This document shows, one piece after another, positions 4,679 through 49,393 of a DNA stretch of 64,000 nucleotides (the first letter of the stretch is position 1; every line of letters starts with the position of its first letter). Source of the DNA: Xanthostigma xanthostigma (Eukaryota > Arthropoda > Insecta > Raphidioptera > Raphidiidae); contig OY754467.1 in assembly GCA_963575645.1 (NCBI GenBank), positions 38,995,108-39,059,107 of the forward strand. Reading direction: 5' to 3'. The position numbers and the translations under genes were made by a program. The notes beneath the pieces were generated by a model. It searched no databases and had not been told where the DNA came from. It was given only the letters and a program-made list of their open reading frames with translations.

Positions 4679-5459
4679 CAGGGCCCTCGCGCCCTATAGT
4701 GCGATGTCTGTGATGCACGCGGGCGGCACATTCAAGGGACGGCAAATGGCCTAGTTGTGTTATGTTTTTTGTACTGTATAGAAAAAATATATAACTGATA
4801 ATATATCAATTTTATTTGCATACTCAAGCCTGCGTGAAAACTCTTACGAGTAGTTATTTATTTTTTAATGAAATTCGAATTCGAAATATTTCGCGCGCAG
4901 TTTTCGATTCGATAGTTAATTCACATCAGCGCATAGACAGGGCGCCCCTATCGGGAGACTCCCGCGTATGTTTATATCTTGAATTTTCCTGTCGATTCCT
5001 GCAAGAGTGCGAGTGAAGTAAAGTATTTTTCAATCAACTAATACTTTTTTACGTAAGACTTGTGCACCTGAATGATATAATTGATAATATATTCTTTGCC
5101 TTATGTGAGTGTAGTACGGAAAAAATTGCAAGTTAATTCCAGGGGATTCACATTCAGTCCTAATGGTTAGTTGGTATTTATGTTTTTATTAATTGCACTG
5201 GTATTCATTTTTCCTAATTGATAAACTAATGATTATTTTGACTTAATGAATTCTCTCAGCTCAGCGGTGAAACTAAATTTTTCTCTCATTTATTTAAATT
5301 TATAAGAAATAGAGTTTCTATTAATTGCACTTACAGTATTAGTTATTTAGGATTTTTAACGTTTTTCAATTTGACATATCGTCTAGTGAGTTTATCCCCA
5401 ATAAGGGGCGTCAATTATGAATCCGCACGCGGGCGGCGTGAGGCCTTACGAGGGCCCTG
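4679..5459. mobile_element. hAT-like non-autonomous element with perfect 8-bp TSD
   Basis: The ends are CAGGGCCCTCGCG and CGAGGGCCCTG, an 11-bp terminal inverted repeat starting CAG as in hAT transposons. GTCAGGAT lies immediately outside both ends (4671-4678 and 5460-5467), a perfect 8-bp target duplication, the length hAT transposases make. Both subterminal regions hold the direct repeat GCACGCGGGCGGC. The 781-bp interior is AT-rich with no transposase frame. Confidence 0.8.
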
Positions 5460-25114: not shown

Positions 25115-25216
25115 ATATATCCGAGGACAACACGTCGCGACGTGCGGGTGAGACGCGAGTGGAAATGGCTGAGAGATACACATGGTACTCAATCATGGAT
25201 CGGTTGGACGATTTTT

Positions 25217-26194
<978 letters not shown>

Positions 26195-27024
26195 TATGTT
26201 TTCTATACAAGGTGAGATCATTTGGTGATAAATGCTATACAAATGGAGATCCGTTTTAACAAGCCGAGATCCGAATCGGATCTCGTTGTGTTTCTATGTG
26301 TATATCAATTTTTTTCGGTTAATATGGGTGTGGGGAATGCGCAGTTAAATTTTAGTCCGGATCTCCATTTGCTCATTTTTATCAATTTTTATACACGAGT
26401 AGTTCAACAAAACGCACTAGTGAGGTCACTGCTGTGCCAAACTTGTATATAACATTTCGTGCACAACCTGAGATCCTATATAATCGGCAACACTGCGTCG
26501 CATATTTTCATACACACAGACGCCTTTATTTATTTTATGTTATATCATCTAAGTTTGTTTCGGAGCTCAAGCCTCAAACCGAGTGAATAAAATTCATAAC
26601 TTTGGAATTTTGTAACATTGCATTTTATAATGATCATGTTAATGAGTAAAACCGTAAGAATAGGTAAGCGTAAGAATAAAGGCTAGCGGTTAAATATAAT
26701 TGATTTATCTACATATTATATGAGTATTTGAAAAAAAAGTTGAGCATGCTATGATATTCAAATTGAAGTAAAAAAAATAGTTGGCACAACCAAAAGTGCA
26801 CATCCCGCAAGTTTTCCACTGTATGATAAAAAAATAACAATTAAAAAATATTTTTAATAAATTTAAAAAGATTTAAAAATTTAAAGAAATAAATAATTAA
26901 AAATTGAAAAAATATTTTTTTTTAAGTTTGCAAAAATAAAAAAAATTAAGAACTATACATAATATAATATATAATTAATATCAAGTGGAATAAAATAAAA
27001 CAAAATAAAAAGAAAAAAATCAAT

Positions 27025-27097
27025 GATTTCGTAAGGAATCGAACCCAGGACCTTGCCCTTGGGGATCCAACGGCATAACCATTACGCCACGGCGGCC
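27025..27097 (-). tRNA. tRNA-like sequence, degenerate
   Basis: Minus strand: D-arm GCGT..ATGC and A box TGGCGTAATGG, loop ATCCCCA that would give anticodon CCC (Gly) with U33, and B box GGGTTCGATTCC. Acceptor strands do not pair and the T stem has only three pairs. Probably a SINE head or tRNA pseudogene. Confidence 0.5.
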
Positions 27098-27351
27098 TAA
27101 TACGTGTAGTGGTGTTATCACGGTATAGAAGTGTAGCACTTGTTTTATGGATTACACTATATTTACACAGCAATTATTATATTGTTTTTAAACTATTAGC
27201 TGTCAAAAATAATTTAAAAAAAACTGTTTATAAAAATTAAACTACTGAACACATTTTAGTGAATTTAAATAGGGTTCTGGTCTGATAGTAAACAAAGTGA
27301 ATAAAATATAACCCAAGGCAATCCGACCAAAATTGCGATCTGTAGAGTCGT

Positions 27352-27382
27352 GACGTACGTACATACGTACGTACATACGTAC
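27352..27382. repeat. (GTAC/ATAC)n microsatellite
   Basis: ACGTACGTACATACGTACGT and continuation, largely self-complementary. Confidence 0.8.
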
Positions 27383-27782
27383 AGACCAACCGACAACTGC
27401 TGTTTGTGATTTTCAATTACAATTTTAATAGTATTTATGAACTCGAATTGATTTAAAAATGGTTCTATTTTATAGATTAGAATCTCCTCTTTTCAAAAAG
27501 CTTCAATTTGAATGGATTTCGTGTGAAATTAACTTAGATATAACTTCTTATATGAACGAAAGTCAGCTTTGACGCACAAAGCGATAATAAAGCACATATC
27601 GCTAGTTTAGCGGTATGTGCAATTAGATAATCAATATTTCTACAATAATTTCTTTTAGTTGTTCGTTTATTTATAATAAAGGAGTAATGGCTTGGGGCAG
27701 GAAGCAAACAATGTAGATATTTCCAGAAAAAAAAAAAAAAAATATTATCATAAGTTTTTATTAAACTGAAACTGTACTTATT

Positions 27783-27935
27783 ACAATAAATAAAATTATC
27801 GACCAATTTTTCAGACAAATATATTAACAAAAAATAATAATTAATACATTGACGTTTCGGTATTAATTGAAATTTTTTGTTAATATACCTATTAATTGTC
27901 TGAAAAATTAGTGGATAGTTTTATTTATTGAAGAA
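27783..27935. repeat. Foldback related to 44112-44405
   Basis: AATAAATAAAATTATCGACC and CCAATTTTTCAGACAA face their complements on the right (TTGTCTGAAAAATTAGTGG). The same arms occur in the hAT at 43561. The centre keeps ACGTTTCG, part of the conserved GAAACGT tail described for the other copy. It lies just beyond the stop codon of the recombinase-like gene. Confidence 0.7.
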
Positions 27936-27980
27936 TTCTAATAAAACATTAATCAAAGATTTATACTTATTACATATTTT

Positions 27981-28196
27981 TTAATTTAATACTTTTATTT
28001 GTACCCAGTTCTTGTCCTTAAATAAATCTGGATATTTTTCCCGTAATTTTAGACATTCTGCTTTTTTGGGAGAATTTTTTTTTAATATGAGTTTTGAAAA
28101 ATTGTAACATTTTAGATTTTTGCTGTTTATTCCATGATCCACGGCAATTTTTTTTGTCTGTGTTTACTTTACTCTTCTCCTTTTTGCGTGGTGTTT
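27981..28196 (-). CDS. Exon 5 (last): basic tail and W-x-K-x2-K domain
   Basis: Acceptor CTTATTTTTTACAG precedes 28196. Reads TPRKKEKSKVNTDKKN, then GSWNKQQKSKMLQFFKTHIK. Nine As (plus-strand 28074-28083 region) put the rest out of frame; one base over it reads PKKAECLKLREKYPDLFKDK then NWVQIKVLN and stops at 27981-27983. The domain is conserved at the C-terminus of related proteins. Confidence 0.65.
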
Positions 28197-31100
28197 CTGT
28201 AAAAAATAAGCGTAAGAAGAATTCGAATTTTCGTATTAATAATACAAAGATTATTAATTTTATTTTAACGTGATTTAAGCTGTTCTGTCAAGTTTGCAAG
28301 TCTACAGAAATCGCATAACTTCGAGTTCGCGCAATTTGGAGTAGTGTAATTCGGGATATTACAGGGTATATAGATTTTAATGGGATTATCTTCAAAAATA
28401 AGTCATGTCTGTGACACTCTGTACCTATATCAGAATAAACTTTATGTACCTGTAAGCAATAATTATTTTTCAAAATTCTAAATTTCAACAGAGATTTTTA
28501 TGTGGTTCATGCACTTTCGGTGATCATTCATACGCAACCTTCCCCTGATTCCGAATTAATATCGTTCTTGGTTTCATACTCGGGGACCACAACAGTATTT
28601 GAATCATCTAGTGTACCTCGTTTACTTGGGGCATCTGATAACAGACAGTCAAAAATGAGAAAAAGTGTTACGTATGTGATTTTTAATATTTTAATGTTTG
28701 AAAAATAGTTTTAATAATAATGCGTGGTATTAAGAGTATTCGTCCCTGCAAATACCCCCTGCACCCTTCATCTCAAATCTTTTCCTCTCGCCTAAAAACG
28801 GTTTGCGCTCTCCCGACGCTATTTTTAAAGCTAGAGAGTTCTGGTAAACGCCAAATGAAAGACAAAGAATCAGACTACAGATCCTTCAGGCGAATTTTTT
28901 GAAAAAAAATTCCTGAAAAAACTTACAACCTTTTGAAAAAAATAATAAGTTACGTAATATTTCACACGTAGGCGAGACTTTTTTTTAAAAAATTCGCCTG
29001 AAGGATCTGTAGTCTGATTCTTTGTCTTTCATTTGGCGTTACCCAGAACCCTCTAGCTTTAAAAATAGCGTCGGGAGAGCGCGAACCGTTTTTAGGCGAG
29101 GGGAAAAGATTGAGATGAAGGGTGCAGCGGGTGTTTGCAGGGACGAATTTTCTTAATACGTTCTTTACCAATCATTAATAATAATTGTTACCATTTTCGT
29201 TTTCCTCGAAAGATTGTCTATTCCATTGTTCCAATTCGACGTCGAATTTATCACTGTCGACCCCCCTTTCCATCATTAAAAGTAACTTGGCTATTTTTGC
29301 GGTTTTGGTAAACTTCCTGTGGTAATCTTAAAATAAAGTTTAAATTTATTTTTCGAATTACATATTACATATCCGCGGATACGGATCTGAATACGGATAT
29401 TTGGTTTCAAGATCCGCGGATACGGATACGGATATTTGGTTTCAAGATCCGTGGAAACGGATACGGATCTTAACTTTCTTAGAGTACGCGGCGGTAAATA
29501 TTGCACATCGACCTTTGGAAAGAGACTGTTATGGGAAAAAGTTATTGACTTCTTTAAGAGTTAACTCTCATAACAGATTCCAGAGATCGATGTGCAATAT
29601 CTCATTATAAAGATAGTTTTTTATTAGTACCTTTGAGTTATGTACTATTGGTATGGTACTCACTACGATAAATTTTTGCAATATAAAGGTGCCAAATACG
29701 ATTTTAAGAAATAAAAAATAATCTGAATGGAATTTAACAGTTTCTCATTATTACCTAATTACATATATACAGTGTGTTCATTTCAAAAGTATCCACCCTT
29801 AATAACTCCTGACCTGATGTGATTATTGTTTTGAGTGAAAACACGTCGATTTAGATATCGAGGGGGAAGTTCAAAAATGGAACCCAGAGAATTTTAGGTT
29901 TCATCCCCTAGCCCCCAGCCATCCCTACTTTGAAATTTCGAATGGCACCCCCTACCTTGTGATGCATCATTTGAAAGGGCATAAAATTCTCTATTCAACC
30001 ATGATAAAAAAAATGAAATCGATCGATTGGTTCTTAAGATAGACTACACAGAAGATGGAAACGTTCTTCTTTCTTATTTGACACTTTTCCGCAACAAATA
30101 CTACTTTTAACAAGATAACACTCGACAAAAGAAGTAAAGAAAACCGTACTGATGTTTGACAGAAATTGTTGCATTTGTTTTTCCATGGCCGCCTTCGAAA
30201 ACGACAAAAATCACATCCCATGGCTCGAGACTGTGTTTTTTCCATGATGCGACGTATGCAACATTCGTCAAAGTTCGTGAAGAGTTCCAAAACAGAAAGT
30301 ATTTTTCTCTACCAAATAATGGTGGCCATTTCGAACATATCATAAAATAATTTCTTATGACTGTAATTTAAAATAAATAATAATAAGTGTTTCAAAATTT
30401 GTTTGTTGAATTCAACAGTGTATCCAATCCGCAATGTTTTGCTAATAATAATTGATTTCATACCTTCCATCTTCTGTGTAGTCTATCTTAAGAACCAATC
30501 GATCGATTTCATTTTTTTTATCATAGTTGAATAGAGAATTTTATGCCCTTTCAAATGATGCATCACAAGTTAGGGGGTGCCCTTTGAAATTTCAAAGTGG
30601 GGGTGGCTGGGGGCTAGGGGATGAAACCTAAAATTCTCTAGGTTCCATTTTTGAACTTCCCCCTCGATATCTAAATCGACGTGTTTTCACTCAAAACAAT
30701 AATCACATCAGGTCAGGAATTATTAAGGGTGGATACTTTTGAAATGAACACACTGTATATACATGTATGAATTGAAAATTAATAAGGTAAAAGATCCGTA
30801 AAAGATCCGCCATAAAACTAACGGATACGGATATTTGGTTTCAAGATCCGCGGATCTTTCTTCTCCCTCAGATATCCGCGGATACGGATGCGGATATCCG
30901 GCGCATCACTAGTTGGTACACATATATAAAATATGTTTAAAAAAAATCCTAAAATATGTATTAATTAAAGCGAAAGAAAAATAATTTTTTTCCTACAATT
31001 TTTATAGTTTATTTATAAAATATCATACCTATAAAACTGTTCGTGCGTCTTCTTCGTATGACCCATAAAAGTAGCCAATTGTTCCATTTCATTATCGTTA

Positions 31101-31473
31101 AGGTTTAAAATTTGTAAAACAGTTGCAATTTGTTTTCTGAGACGGGAAGATGTTAAAGTACCCGGATTTTTTTCGTTTTAACGAAACAAAAGGCAATTTA
31201 TGTATTACAATTTTAATTTATCAATGATGAAATTTAAAAAAAAACAATTTTATAGTCTTTCAAATTTTATTACAAAATGCTTTTAATAACAGCAAAATAT
31301 TTTGCTGTACTATAAAATGGTTTTGCATTCACAAAAAAGTGTTCTGCTTGAATGTAGCTTAAAAAAAATTAAAAAGTTAATTTAACTTACCTTCGTCTTG
31401 TATACCTACTAGCAGTTGTCGTGTATTTTTTATTTATAGCCAGATTTACTAACTTTTTCCTACGTGATAACAT
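27981..31473 (-). CDS. Five-exon gene, tyrosine-recombinase-like C-terminus
   Basis: Exons on the minus strand: 31473-31391, 31136-31029 (open up to 31177), 29326-29192, 28634-28539, 28196-27981. Splice signals are visible at each junction and phases agree throughout (2, 2, 1, 1). The second exon contains LRKQIAT, then FMGH and, eight residues on, FY: the R..GH-x8-Y pattern of the catalytic second half of tyrosine recombinases. It continues RLPQEVYQ and an amphipathic AKIAKLLLMMERG, then an acidic linker, then a basic stretch and a W-x-K-x2-K..FF-x2-HI..W-x2-IK domain. I recognise this order from uncharacterised invertebrate proteins and Crypton-like recombinases. Two one-base insertions at A runs (exon 3 CAAAACC, exon 5 nine As) break the frame. 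Encoded length is about 210 residues, so the N-terminal half of a recombinase is missing. Pseudogene or assembly error; function inferred. Confidence 0.65.
28539..28634 (-). CDS. Exon 4: acidic linker
   Basis: Acceptor TGACTGTCTGTTATCAG gives phase-1 entry, then APSKRGTLDDSN and an acidic run ending ESGE. The donor AAG|GTTGCG is weak but is the only one that keeps phase with exon 5; without it the frame stops at a TGA eight bases on. Confidence 0.55.
28727..29160. mobile_element. Foldback MITE in intron 3
   Basis: Arms of about 175 bp: GTATTAAGAGTATTCGTCCC..GCGCTCTCCCGACGCTATTT on the left and the complement on the right (CAGGGACGAATTTTCTTAATAC). Loop about 28905-28985. Two short frames over it are shadows of each other. 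Confidence 0.75.
29192..29326 (-). CDS. Exon 3: post-catalytic helix
   Basis: Acceptor TTTATTTTAAG, then A completes the Arg codon split in exon 2, followed by LPQEVYQ. One extra A in TACCAAAACCGC shifts the frame; the next frame reads TAKIAKLLLMMERGVDSDKF and ends ..EENEN before donor GTAACA. Removing a single A restores a length that is in phase with both neighbours. Confidence 0.7.
29770..30755 (+). mobile_element. Mariner-type foldback, TA-flanked, about 290-bp TIRs
   Basis: CAGTGTGTTCATTTCAAAAG and its complement are flanked by TA (29768-29769, 30756-30757). The inverted arms run to TTCTGTGTAGTCTATC on each side. The unique centre keeps the last residues of a transposase (next entry). 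It is nested in the element at 29366. Confidence 0.85.
30252..30350 (+). pseudogene. Mariner-type transposase C-terminal end
   Basis: The frame ends FQNRKYFSLPNNGGHFEHII then K and stop at 30350. The terminal N-G-G-H-F/I-E-H is the hallmark end of mariner-like transposases, placed just inside the right TIR as expected. Upstream, the same frame (from 30156) is not recognisable, so only the tail survived. Confidence 0.7.
31029..31177 (-). CDS. Exon 2: tyrosine-recombinase catalytic segment
   Basis: Open from 31177 as NPGTLTSSRLRKQIATV and on through LNDNEMEQLATFMGHTKKTH to EQFY. Donor TATAG|GTATGA leaves phase 2. Two readings of the 5' border: an acceptor CCCGTCTCAG ending at 31137, which joins exon 1 in phase, or an upstream border that keeps LTSSR, which looks conserved in related proteins but has no good AG. 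Confidence 0.7.
31391..31473 (-). CDS. Candidate exon 1 with start codon
   Basis: CCAAAATGTTATC gives a good insect start context. 27 codons, MLSRRKKLVNLAINKKYTTT and onward, are basic and end at a consensus donor CGAAG|GTAAGT in phase 2, which matches exon 2 if the CTCAG acceptor is used. The peptide itself is not recognised. Confidence 0.45.
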
Positions 31474-31831
31474 TTTGGAGCAAATTATTTTTTGTCACTA
31501 CCACAATTTGAACACTTTTAACTACTAAAAGTGCACGCGTACTGCGTAGCAACGTCACAAGAATTTGGCAATGTTGCAGGATCTCATTTTGTGCTACATA
31601 CATCGTGATATACATTTCCGGATCTCCACTTGTATACATTTCATAACAGATCTCGTTTTGTTCAAATTTTGTCACGAAAAATTTAAACGCAGAAATTGTT
31701 TCCCCTCTGCGGGGTTATAGATTAAGGACATTAAAAGGAGCCTTTTTGTGAAAAAGATACTCCAAAAAACCTTTTTTTTGTGGTGGACCTCGGGTTGTCT
31801 GTAATTTAGTCGGATCTCCACTTGATACAAA

Positions 31832-31838
<7 letters not shown>

Positions 31839-31881
<43 letters not shown>

Positions 31882-31995: not shown

Positions 31996-32111
31996 TATAT
32001 GAGACGAGTTTCCAAGTTTTATAGTTCTGTGACCACGTGACTTTCATAGGACCGATTTTTCGTATCACCCATATATACTTCTGTACCACAATAACAGCTT
32101 ATACGGCGAGT

Positions 32112-32191
32112 ATGCCCGTGGACTAACGGTTACGACGTTAGACTAGTAATAACACTAATAACAGGGTCTCGGGTTCGATTCCCGCCGGCAT
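32112..32191 (+). tRNA. tRNA-like sequence with enlarged anticodon loop
   Basis: ATGCC..GGCAT can close the acceptor, CGGGTTCGATTCCCG gives a T arm with 4 pairs, and GTTAG/CTAAT could form the anticodon stem, but its loop is 13 bases and lacks U33. Box B is perfect (GGTTCGATTCC). Reads as a SINE head or pseudo-tRNA; a tiny intron in the anticodon loop cannot be excluded. Confidence 0.45.
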
Positions 32192-32765
32192 CATTGGAAA
32201 AAAAATTTTTTTCTACTCCATTTTATTTCCACTTGATATTTATATATAATCATATTTTTTATTTTTATTTTTTTTTAATTTTAAATTTTTTTTTATATTT
32301 TTAATTGTTTTTTTTATTTTTAATTTATTTTCTCAATTTTTTTCTCATATACATAATATCTTTATTTCTTTTTTAATTTTTAATTTTTTTTTCTTGTTTT
32401 TTGAAAAATACACTTTCGTCAAATTGTTTATTAAAAAATAACAAAATATATGATTGAAGTTAGATTTAAATAATTTAATTTATTAAAAAACATATTCATC
32501 ATAAAAAGTGCAACAAAAATTAAAAAGAGGAAAGTTTTCAAAGTGAAACTTCTTTTTTAATGCAAAATAAGTATTTTACAAATGATATGAAAAAAATTTT
32601 GTATTTTTAATGGTTGGCCTTGTTCATTGATTTTTTTCATGCCTTCAGAATTGGCCTTCATGGAATCTGTGGCCTCTTAATTCTAAAAATGCACATACCT
32701 ATGTTTATTTTTTGGAGAAAAAATAAAAATAATGTCTCACACTTTGGAAAAAGACGTGAAATCTT
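32192..32765. other. T-rich low-complexity DNA
   Basis: Long runs of T and TTTAATTTTTAATTTTT-like sequence. No gene. Confidence 0.6.
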
Positions 32766-33450
32766 AAAAAAAAACTTCGGAGAAGTAAAAACTTCGTTCT
32801 GTGCTAAATTAAAAAAAATGAGGCGACTGAATCTCAGAATTATAACTTAAAAAAAAAGAATTTCGAGGCAGACAAGAAATTGAAATCAAGCTCGAAATTC
32901 TGTGCCTAAGACGTCGAAAAAAAAAAGAATTTCGAGGCAGACAAGAAATTGAAATCAAGCTCGAAATTCTGTGCCTAAGACGTCGAAAAAAAAAAAGAAT
33001 TTTGAGGCAGACAAGGAATTGAAATCCAACTTCGAAATTCTGTGCTATATAAAAGCTACAAGAGCAACAGCAAAAAAAGTGCACAGACGGCGTTTTTTTA
33101 GTGGTAAGTAAAGGAGTTATGCGAACACCGTCTTTGCATTTTTTTGCTGTTGCTCTTGTAGCTTTTATAAGCACAGAATTTCAAAGTTGGATTTCAATTC
33201 CTTGTCTGCCTCAAAATTCTTTTTTTTTTCGACGTCTTAGGCACAGAATTTCGAGCTTGATTTCAATTTCTTGTCTGCCTCGAAATTCTTTTTTTTTTCG
33301 ACGTCTTAGGCACAGAATTTCGAGCTTGATTTCAATTTCTTGTCTGCCTCGAAATTCTTTTTTTTTAAGTTATAATTCTGAGATTCAGTCGCCTCAAGTT
33401 TTTTAATTTAGCACAGAACGAAGTTTTTACTTCTCCGAAGTTTTTTTTTA
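32766..33450. repeat. 685-bp palindrome of 69-70 bp tandem units
   Basis: Left arm: units start GAATTTCGAGGCAGACAAG at 32858, 32927 and 32997 (periods 69, 70), each ending in ..GTCGAAAAAAAAAA. The right arm (about 33130-33450) is the reverse complement, also three units. Outer borders are AACTTCGGAGAAGTAAAAAC and its mirror; the centre holds GCTACAAGAGCAACAGC and its mirror. The right end meets a (TA)n tract. The repeated Arg-Leu-Arg-His frames are artefacts of the tandem units. Confidence 0.85.
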
Positions 33451-33473
33451 AGATATATATATACATATATATA
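33451..33473. repeat. Short (TA)n tract 4
   Basis: GATATATATATACATATATA, between the 70-bp-unit palindrome and module E. Confidence 0.8.
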
Positions 33474-48658: not shown

Positions 48659-48783
48659 TAGTGTATTTGCCATAAGGCACTTACACTATTGGCGTCGGTC
48701 GGATGGCGGGACCTAGGGGTCGGACCAAAATTTCTCGACGTTTCATAAGTTTCTAAGAACTTTGGCACCATTTTTGGAAATGT
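48659..48783 (-). repeat. Module E, copy 2
   Basis: Reverse of 33474-33605, nearly identical, again ending on (TA)n. Confidence 0.75.
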
Positions 48784-48796
48784 TTATATAAATATG

Positions 48797-48867
<71 letters not shown>
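48784..48867. repeat. (TA)n microsatellite 5
   Basis: TA-rich tract with TTTATA interruptions joining module E to module C. Confidence 0.9.
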
Positions 48868-48870
<3 letters not shown>

Positions 48871-49393
48871 ACCACGATAACTCTCGACAGACTTAATCGA
48901 TTTAAACGAAATTTGGTCCACATGTTGGAATCCATCATCGCAAGAAGCCTATTTAAAATGGGCCCGATCGGGCCATTTTAAGGGGGGTATTTAGGGGTTG
49001 AAAAATGTTTTTGGGCCCAAAAATACGGAAAAAATTTTCAGAATCACTTCAAATTTGAAATTTAACCCTTTAGTAATTATTGAAATGTGCTGCTAAAATT
49101 TAAATAAAATCGGCCCGACAGGACCGGACTTACAAATTTTATGAAAACGCAAGTTTACTGATATGGATTTACACACTGAAGGGTGTATATAATTTGGTAC
49201 AGATGTTGAATTGGTATGTAGTATTGAAATTAAGTAAAAAAATGTTGTTTTAAGGGGTGTACTAGAGGGTAATTTTTTTTATTTTGTCCAAAAACAAAGT
49301 TAAGTTAATACAATAGAGCCACACTGCTTATAAAAGCAAATACACTATATTGTCGGCAGGGTTTCGCACTGCGACCCGAGTTTTTTTTGTTTA
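48868..49393 (+). repeat. Module C, full copy
   Basis: GTGTGACCACGATAACTCTC to GTTTCGCACTGCGACCCGAG. Matches 25217-25753 in reverse with few differences, so this is the element's full length of about 530 bp. Confidence 0.75.

Follow-up and report, generated by a model that had tools for sequence, protein, structure and literature searches.

Is the gene-like array on the minus strand at 31473-27981 of this DNA a spliced recombinase gene, or the remains of something mobile? The window, a stretch of 64,000 nucleotides from the Xanthostigma xanthostigma genome (contig OY754467.1, positions 38,995,108 to 39,059,107), was described in a sequence-only reading as holding five exons that join into one tyrosine recombinase (YR), hidden from single-frame calling and belonging either to a Crypton-like mobile recombinase or to a domesticated relative. 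Our answer is that the array is probably part of a decayed, non-autonomous copy of a YR transposon that is bounded by terminal inverted repeats (TIRs) and targets TA microsatellites.

To determine the copy number, a peptide of 42 residues from exon 2 was searched against the genome to which the window belongs (28 contigs, 623 Mb); the counts are lower bounds. Scoring covered 150 of the 176 candidates, and each was a match, which gives at least 150 matches; what had been taken for a hidden gene is a repeat. By hand tally, the scored matches comprise 115 of a main class, which includes the window, 31 of a second class that covers residues 1-36 or 1-37 of the peptide only, and 4 that fall within long frames (of 858, 328, 213, and 191 residues; 62–68% identity). 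The peptide is identical across all 42 residues in 21 matches, the window among them, and 3 more are 100% identical over a shorter match. Sixteen further copies were fetched (loci L013-L028): 14 are among the identical matches, L027 belongs to the second class, and L028 is one of the shorter matches. The same two termini occur in 16 of 17 oriented copies, including that of the window, and L027 has no 3' end within the piece analysed. We call this repeat family B, and its features in the window are as follows.

26197 to 31835, minus strand: family-B element copy, end to end (5' end 31835, 3' end 26197), from shared termini and a feature scan
31812 to 31835, minus strand: 5' TIR TGTTTTTGTATCAAGTGGAGATCC, from terminus comparison
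26197 to 26221, minus strand: imperfect 3' TIR of about 24 bp, which reversed reads TGTTTTCTATACAAGGTGAGATC
26778 to 27620, no strand: 843-bp insertion, missing in 14 of the 16 fetched copies (L017 has it, and L027 falls short of the site)
29770 to 30761 (about), no strand: foldback insertion of about 990 bp, missing in 12 of the 16 fetched copies

The TIR alignment score was equalled or exceeded in 4 of 2000 random pairs for family B, and in 3 of 2000 for the sister element described below as family A. The unit is 4.4–4.5 kb long in 9 of 16 measured copies, and the others range from 4.2 to 5.6 kb. The sequence of the 843-bp insertion was also found standing alone in L024 (92%). At the site of the larger insertion, L013 and L017 do have some sequence, and L027 and L028 do not span it. 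Exon 2 seems less diverged than its flanks among the aligned copies; this is ascertainment, because 14 of the 16 copies were picked for 100% identity of the exon-2 peptide, and no selection is claimed. A further foldback with 133-nt arms lies inside the unit at 28776-29111 and was found in many fetched copies, and in the second-class copy a long satellite-like array follows exon 2 (L027:5585-9901).

Both ends of the element adjoin alternating TA, and the window also holds a copy of the target that carries no element. The relevant features are listed here.

31836 to 31878 (approximate), no strand: (TA)n target repeat next to the element's 5' end, an alternating run of 42
26092 to 26192 (approximate), no strand: (TA)n target repeat next to the element's 3' end, an alternating run of 89
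25212 to 26090, no strand: repeat X, a foldback around (TA)n in the 3'-side flank, from copy comparison
48744 to 48916, plus strand: empty target R1-(TA)n-X without the element, the TA tract being imperfect

When family-B ends matching at up to 4 substitutions were counted, alternating TA adjoined all 20 of the 5' ends (13–84 nt) and all 15 of the 3' ends (8–112 nt). TA runs were likewise found at 4 of 4 sites for each end of family A. The same R1-(TA)n-X arrangement is filled by family B in one orientation in L024 and L025, by family B in the opposite orientation in L018 and L021, and by family A in L040. These filled and empty sites show that (TA)n is a target and that insertion occurs in both orientations. 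Elements also lie in pairs: a head-to-tail family-A pair stands at the start of L009 with 60 nt of TA between its members, and a head-to-tail family-B pair in L026 is 43 nt apart. Match coordinates suggest further pairs, both head-to-tail (for example C1:36509261/36513748) and head-to-head (for example C3:15688883/15690451).

Within the element, the minus strand from 31177 to 27981 keeps the C-terminal half of a YR gene. The segments of the array are given below.

31391 to 31473, minus strand: proposed exon 1, which belongs to the 5' region of the element and is probably not coding
31029 to 31177, minus strand: exon 2 remnant with the catalytic Arg II (LRK), GH, and Tyr, from tblastn with L009, L033, L034, and others and from its frame
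29192 to 29326, minus strand: exon 3 remnant (RLPQEVYQ / TAKIAKLLLMMERG), in which an extra A of the window copy breaks the frame
28539 to 28634, minus strand: exon 4 segment, an acidic linker, with the borders first proposed
27981 to 28196, minus strand: exon 5 remnant, a W-rich C-terminal domain split across two frames at an A-run

The splice-like sites quoted in the sequence-only reading are present on the minus strand between 31473 and 27981, and its five exons (31473-31391, 31136-31029, 29316-29192, 28634-28539, and 28196 onward) join in phase. The joined product has 196 codons and ends at a stop at 28020-28018, inside exon 5. This is the frame that contains the W-x-K-x2-K motif; the stop at 27981, which had been taken as the end of the gene, lies in a different frame. 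The whole proposed span joins to 628 nt, which is not divisible by 3. It is not an intact multi-exon gene.

Exon 2 is the strongest segment, and its frame reads NEKNPGTLTSSRLRKQIATVLQILNLNDNEMEQLATFMGHTKKTHEQFYR. In tblastn with the full-length YR of L009, it matched at E 2.3e-15. The homology begins at NEKNPG/KNPG (about 31177-31171), right after an in-frame TAA, and the proposed exon border at 31136 falls within the homologous domain. Exon 1 gave no match to six full-length YR proteins (tblastn, E <= 0.05), and its start conflicts with the homologues. In exon 3, the peptides LPQEVYQ and TAKIAKLLL lie in different frames owing to the extra A. That base is missing in 12 of the 16 fetched copies (L013, L015, L016, and L018-L026), and the remaining four (L014, L017, L027, and L028) do not span the position. 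The one-frame reading RLPQEVYQTAKIAKLLLMM, found in 10 of the 16, places the acceptor at 29326 and not at 29316, the acceptor of the five-exon model, which compensates the frame break. Exon 3 of the window copy had no match to a full-length YR at E <= 0.05 (tblastn), and its homology was seen in L022, a related copy, where L033 matched at E 4.7e-4 (tblastn).

Exon 4 was unmatched in tblastn with the full-length YR proteins. The C-terminal half of exon 5 matched the full-length YR of L009 at E 2.7e-4 (tblastn). The two halves of exon 5 stand in a single frame in 2 of the 16 fetched copies (L014 and L024), the arrangement of the window is repeated in L017 and L025, and two bases are missing at the A-run in 8 of the 16. 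Pfam searches with the exon pieces gave a sub-threshold RecQ5 match for one of four proteins and a DUF4044 match for another, both at chance level. Compared with the homologues, two of the proposed exon borders and the start of exon 1 do not hold. The window copy retains Arg II, GH, and Tyr only; Arg I and Lys-beta are gone, and it would therefore encode no complete enzyme even with an open frame.

A more complete relative was found in the same genome. The locus L009 carries an element of about 7.8 kb, family A, with its own TIRs TGCATTTGTATCGTCTTCACCTCC and GGAGGTGTATGAGTACTAAATGCA, each adjoining (TA)n, and between them lies an uninterrupted frame of 858 residues with zinc-finger-like and YR parts. 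Families A and B have no nucleotide similarity beyond the recombinase exon (blastn, L022 unit against L009). Shorter forms of family A also occur. L039 has the 5' end and shares the element with L009 to position 5228, and its recombinase frame is interrupted. L040, L041, and L042 have a deletion junction in common (1331|5111 in L009 numbering), with most of the recombinase frame gone and its end kept. L010 is a different deletion derivative, which has lost about 120 bp at the 5' end beside (TA)n. Family B has the same design as these short forms, that is, a 5' end, a remnant of the 3' portion of the recombinase gene, and a 3' end. The family-A C-terminal domain was found at nine near-identical places, with a 165-residue frame in six of them; the three of these six that were read have the deletion junction in common. 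Element ends were read for families A and B only. One family-A copy contains an insertion of about 3.6 kb with a 523-residue frame (L011:5988-9577); a short overlap at L009 5999-6002 looks like a duplication, and the insertion is probably another transposon.

The identity of the enzyme was evaluated with long-frame relatives from this genome, of 858 (L009), 711 (L033), 628 (L031), 599 (L030), 566 (L032), and 526 (L034) residues, all lengths being those of stop-to-stop frames. In all six aligned relatives, the motifs RRxG[DE], GK, LRK, GH, and Tyr are invariant, as are R547, K594, R666, G691-H692, and Y701 (L009 numbering), which we take to be Arg I, Lys-beta, Arg II, His/Trp III, and Tyr. The catalytic-core profile of the relatives was compared by hhalign with a deep XerD/phage integrase set, consisting of 76 XerD-like viral-contig frames (from 80 loci) and five integrases, with Cre and the plain XerD row left out. 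The probability was 92.4 and the score 50.8, compared with 17.7 for the best of 60 column-permuted controls and 14.1 for the reversed profile, and Lys-beta, Arg II, GH, and Tyr were in register. Against seven integrases only, the match was weak (probability 10.8, score 27.9). Scans with P2 Int and lambda Int gave near-identical copies and were not used. The alignment supports placing the relatives in the tyrosine recombinase superfamily, and with it the recombinase call of the sequence-only reading. The N-terminal parts are zinc-finger-like, judged from CxxC...H...H/C motifs and weak PDB matches; this N terminus and the HxxR motif, discussed below, distinguish the relatives from XerD and the phage integrases.

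Other searches were less informative. With five or six full-length relatives as queries, no recombinase match was obtained in Pfam, PHROGs, or NCBIfam (HMMER). Searches of PDB by phmmer and by hmmsearch gave no recombinase, and the profile of the relatives had as its best PDB matches zinc fingers, all of them weak (E 0.036 and up). Nothing relevant was found by tblastn against phages, and a viral-contig scan with the family alignment gave 12 pattern matches, none of which was confirmed. Among the genome matches listed, no Phage_integrase (PF00589) or DUF3504 (PF12012) match lies at the element places; elsewhere in the genome, there are 84 Phage_integrase matches (E <= 0.1) and 4 DUF3504 matches, the latter in one cluster on contig C13. 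Contig C10 carries, at 10–15 Mb, many recombinase relatives that are diverged and either full or partial. A 466-residue frame with repeats of about 31 residues stands upstream of the 599-residue recombinase frame (L029:8103-9500) and is possibly its 5' exon; its SSrecog and TLP-20 Pfam matches are probably repeat artefacts.

How such an element might move can be outlined as follows. The autonomous ancestor would have had imperfect TIRs of about 24 bp and a gene with zinc-finger and tyrosine-recombinase parts, and its insertion sites would have been (TA)n microsatellites. Through an internal deletion, the gene would have lost its first part, including Arg I and Lys-beta, and kept the last exons, and the derivative would then have multiplied, presumably moved in trans by a full-length recombinase. 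The YR may cut at the TIRs and mobilise the element, which may travel as an excised circle. Tyrosine recombinases generally require sequence identity over a short crossover region, and here (TA)n could be the stretch that circle and target have to share. Insertion in both orientations would follow because TATATA is palindromic and a (TA)n junction of the circle would fit any TA microsatellite; arrays that share one (TA)n would be explained if (TA)n is the crossover region. This role suggests a mechanistic reason for the targeting of TA microsatellites. We propose tentatively, with somewhat more doubt than confidence, that there are animal TIR elements moved by a zinc-finger YR and not by a DDE transposase, which would proceed through circles with TA junctions, enter any TA microsatellite in either orientation, and leave many deletion derivatives.

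Several observations weigh against this proposal and the reading of the window on which it builds. The insertions sit inside (TA)n, where a target duplication cannot be counted. A whole frame was found in one family-A copy only, the stop-to-stop frame of L009, and the gene could be a passenger. Of the seven family-A loci, some represented by pieces that stop short of the element end, four have the 5' end and three the 3' end, and L011 and L041 have neither. The full-length parent of family B was not found, and the four matches of exon 2 in long frames have only 62–68% identity. At the histidine position of HxxR, the six relatives have N or T, and the window has S. The pair L030/L031 has a nonsynonymous divergence (dN) of 0.128 and a synonymous divergence (dS) of 0.178, which indicates weak constraint. 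Apart from these observations, the family-B copy in L029 has FMGY for FMGH, so that the catalytic His is lost, and this argues against retained catalysis; FMGY was read in L029 alone, and many exon-2 matches have the same 98% identity as L029.

TIRs usually go with DDE transposases. A DDE enzyme of the Mutator-like or Tc1-like kind, encoded elsewhere, might move these TIR/(TA)n elements, with the recombinase as captured or accessory cargo, for which gene capture by Mutator elements is a precedent. Papers are cited here by PMC number for the excerpts consulted, and what is said of them is limited to those excerpts. MuTAnT of Medicago is a Mutator-like TIR element with TA-microsatellite targets and many short derivatives, as in families A and B (PMC4486113), and in MarCry-1_FO the TIRs are 16 bp long and the TA duplications are attributed to its Mariner transposase (PMC3212892). 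Tec of Euplotes is excised between TA dinucleotides, and Sardine and Thon (Paramecium) bear a DDE gene plus a YR gene (PMC3464196). However, MuTAnT has a mudrA-like DDE transposase and Tec, Sardine, and Thon encode a DDE transposase as well, whereas a YR is the only enzyme that could be recognised from the sequence of the L009 and L022 elements. Among 51 other open reading frames (ORFs) of L009 (>=60 aa) and L022 (>=50 aa), there was one Pfam match at E <= 0.01 (Keratin_assoc, 0.0023) and no DDE or mudrA-like transposase, although a diverged, intron-split, or trans-acting DDE enzyme would escape such a search. Further points against a DDE enzyme acting in trans are that two families without nucleotide similarity outside the recombinase exon both carry such a gene, and that derivatives like L040 keep both ends with the deletion within the YR gene. 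We regard this explanation as unlikely, though it is the main rival.

An ordinary Crypton relic is very improbable. The element resembles CryptonA and CryptonI in that a YR is the sole recognised enzyme and that non-autonomous derivatives, which exist among Cryptons (PMC3212892), outnumber full-length copies. In contrast, Cryptons lack TIRs, and animal Cryptons show no terminal repeats in the excerpts of the same paper, whereas families A and B have imperfect TIRs of about 24 bp, (TA)n targeting, zinc-finger-like motifs, and a W-rich C-terminal domain, lack the HxxR histidine, and have no PF00589 or PF12012 match at the element places among the matches listed. The description of the array as a Crypton-like mobile recombinase is upheld in spirit for mobility, and fails on the features tested for the likeness to Cryptons. 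That the array is a working, domesticated, spliced host gene can practically be dismissed: its donors and acceptors are plausible and in phase and the acidic linker and W-rich domain are retained, but the frame is broken in exons 3 and 5, a stop comes early, there are more than 100 copies, and the homology is cut on the 5' side, where the enzyme lacks its first half, including Arg I and Lys-beta.

We also compared the TIR-bounded YR element with published ones. In the open-access literature, with subscription papers and Repbase outside the scope, the titles and abstract openings listed gave no TIR-bounded animal transposon that has a YR only and targets TA repeats. No such element is described in the excerpts of PMC9004415, PMC9587614, and PMC12477816, and the DNA elements named in the excerpts of a 2014 study of nematode YR elements are Crypton and TEC (PMC4157794). 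The present genome holds a TIR-bounded relative whose YR frame is uninterrupted, and it also has an exact empty site and deletion derivatives; together these make it directly testable whether a YR can move a TIR element in animals. The case also warns that, where a genome is rich in repeats, a "hidden gene" with consistent splice sites may be a fragment of an abundant transposon.

Two minor features of the window lie in or near the element. Sequences that look like tRNA by eye at 27030-27100 and 32090-32190 suggest short interspersed elements within or beside it, and ARAGORN found no tRNA gene. A long foldback at 32761-33454 has 242-nt arms at 98% and an internal 69-nt repeat.

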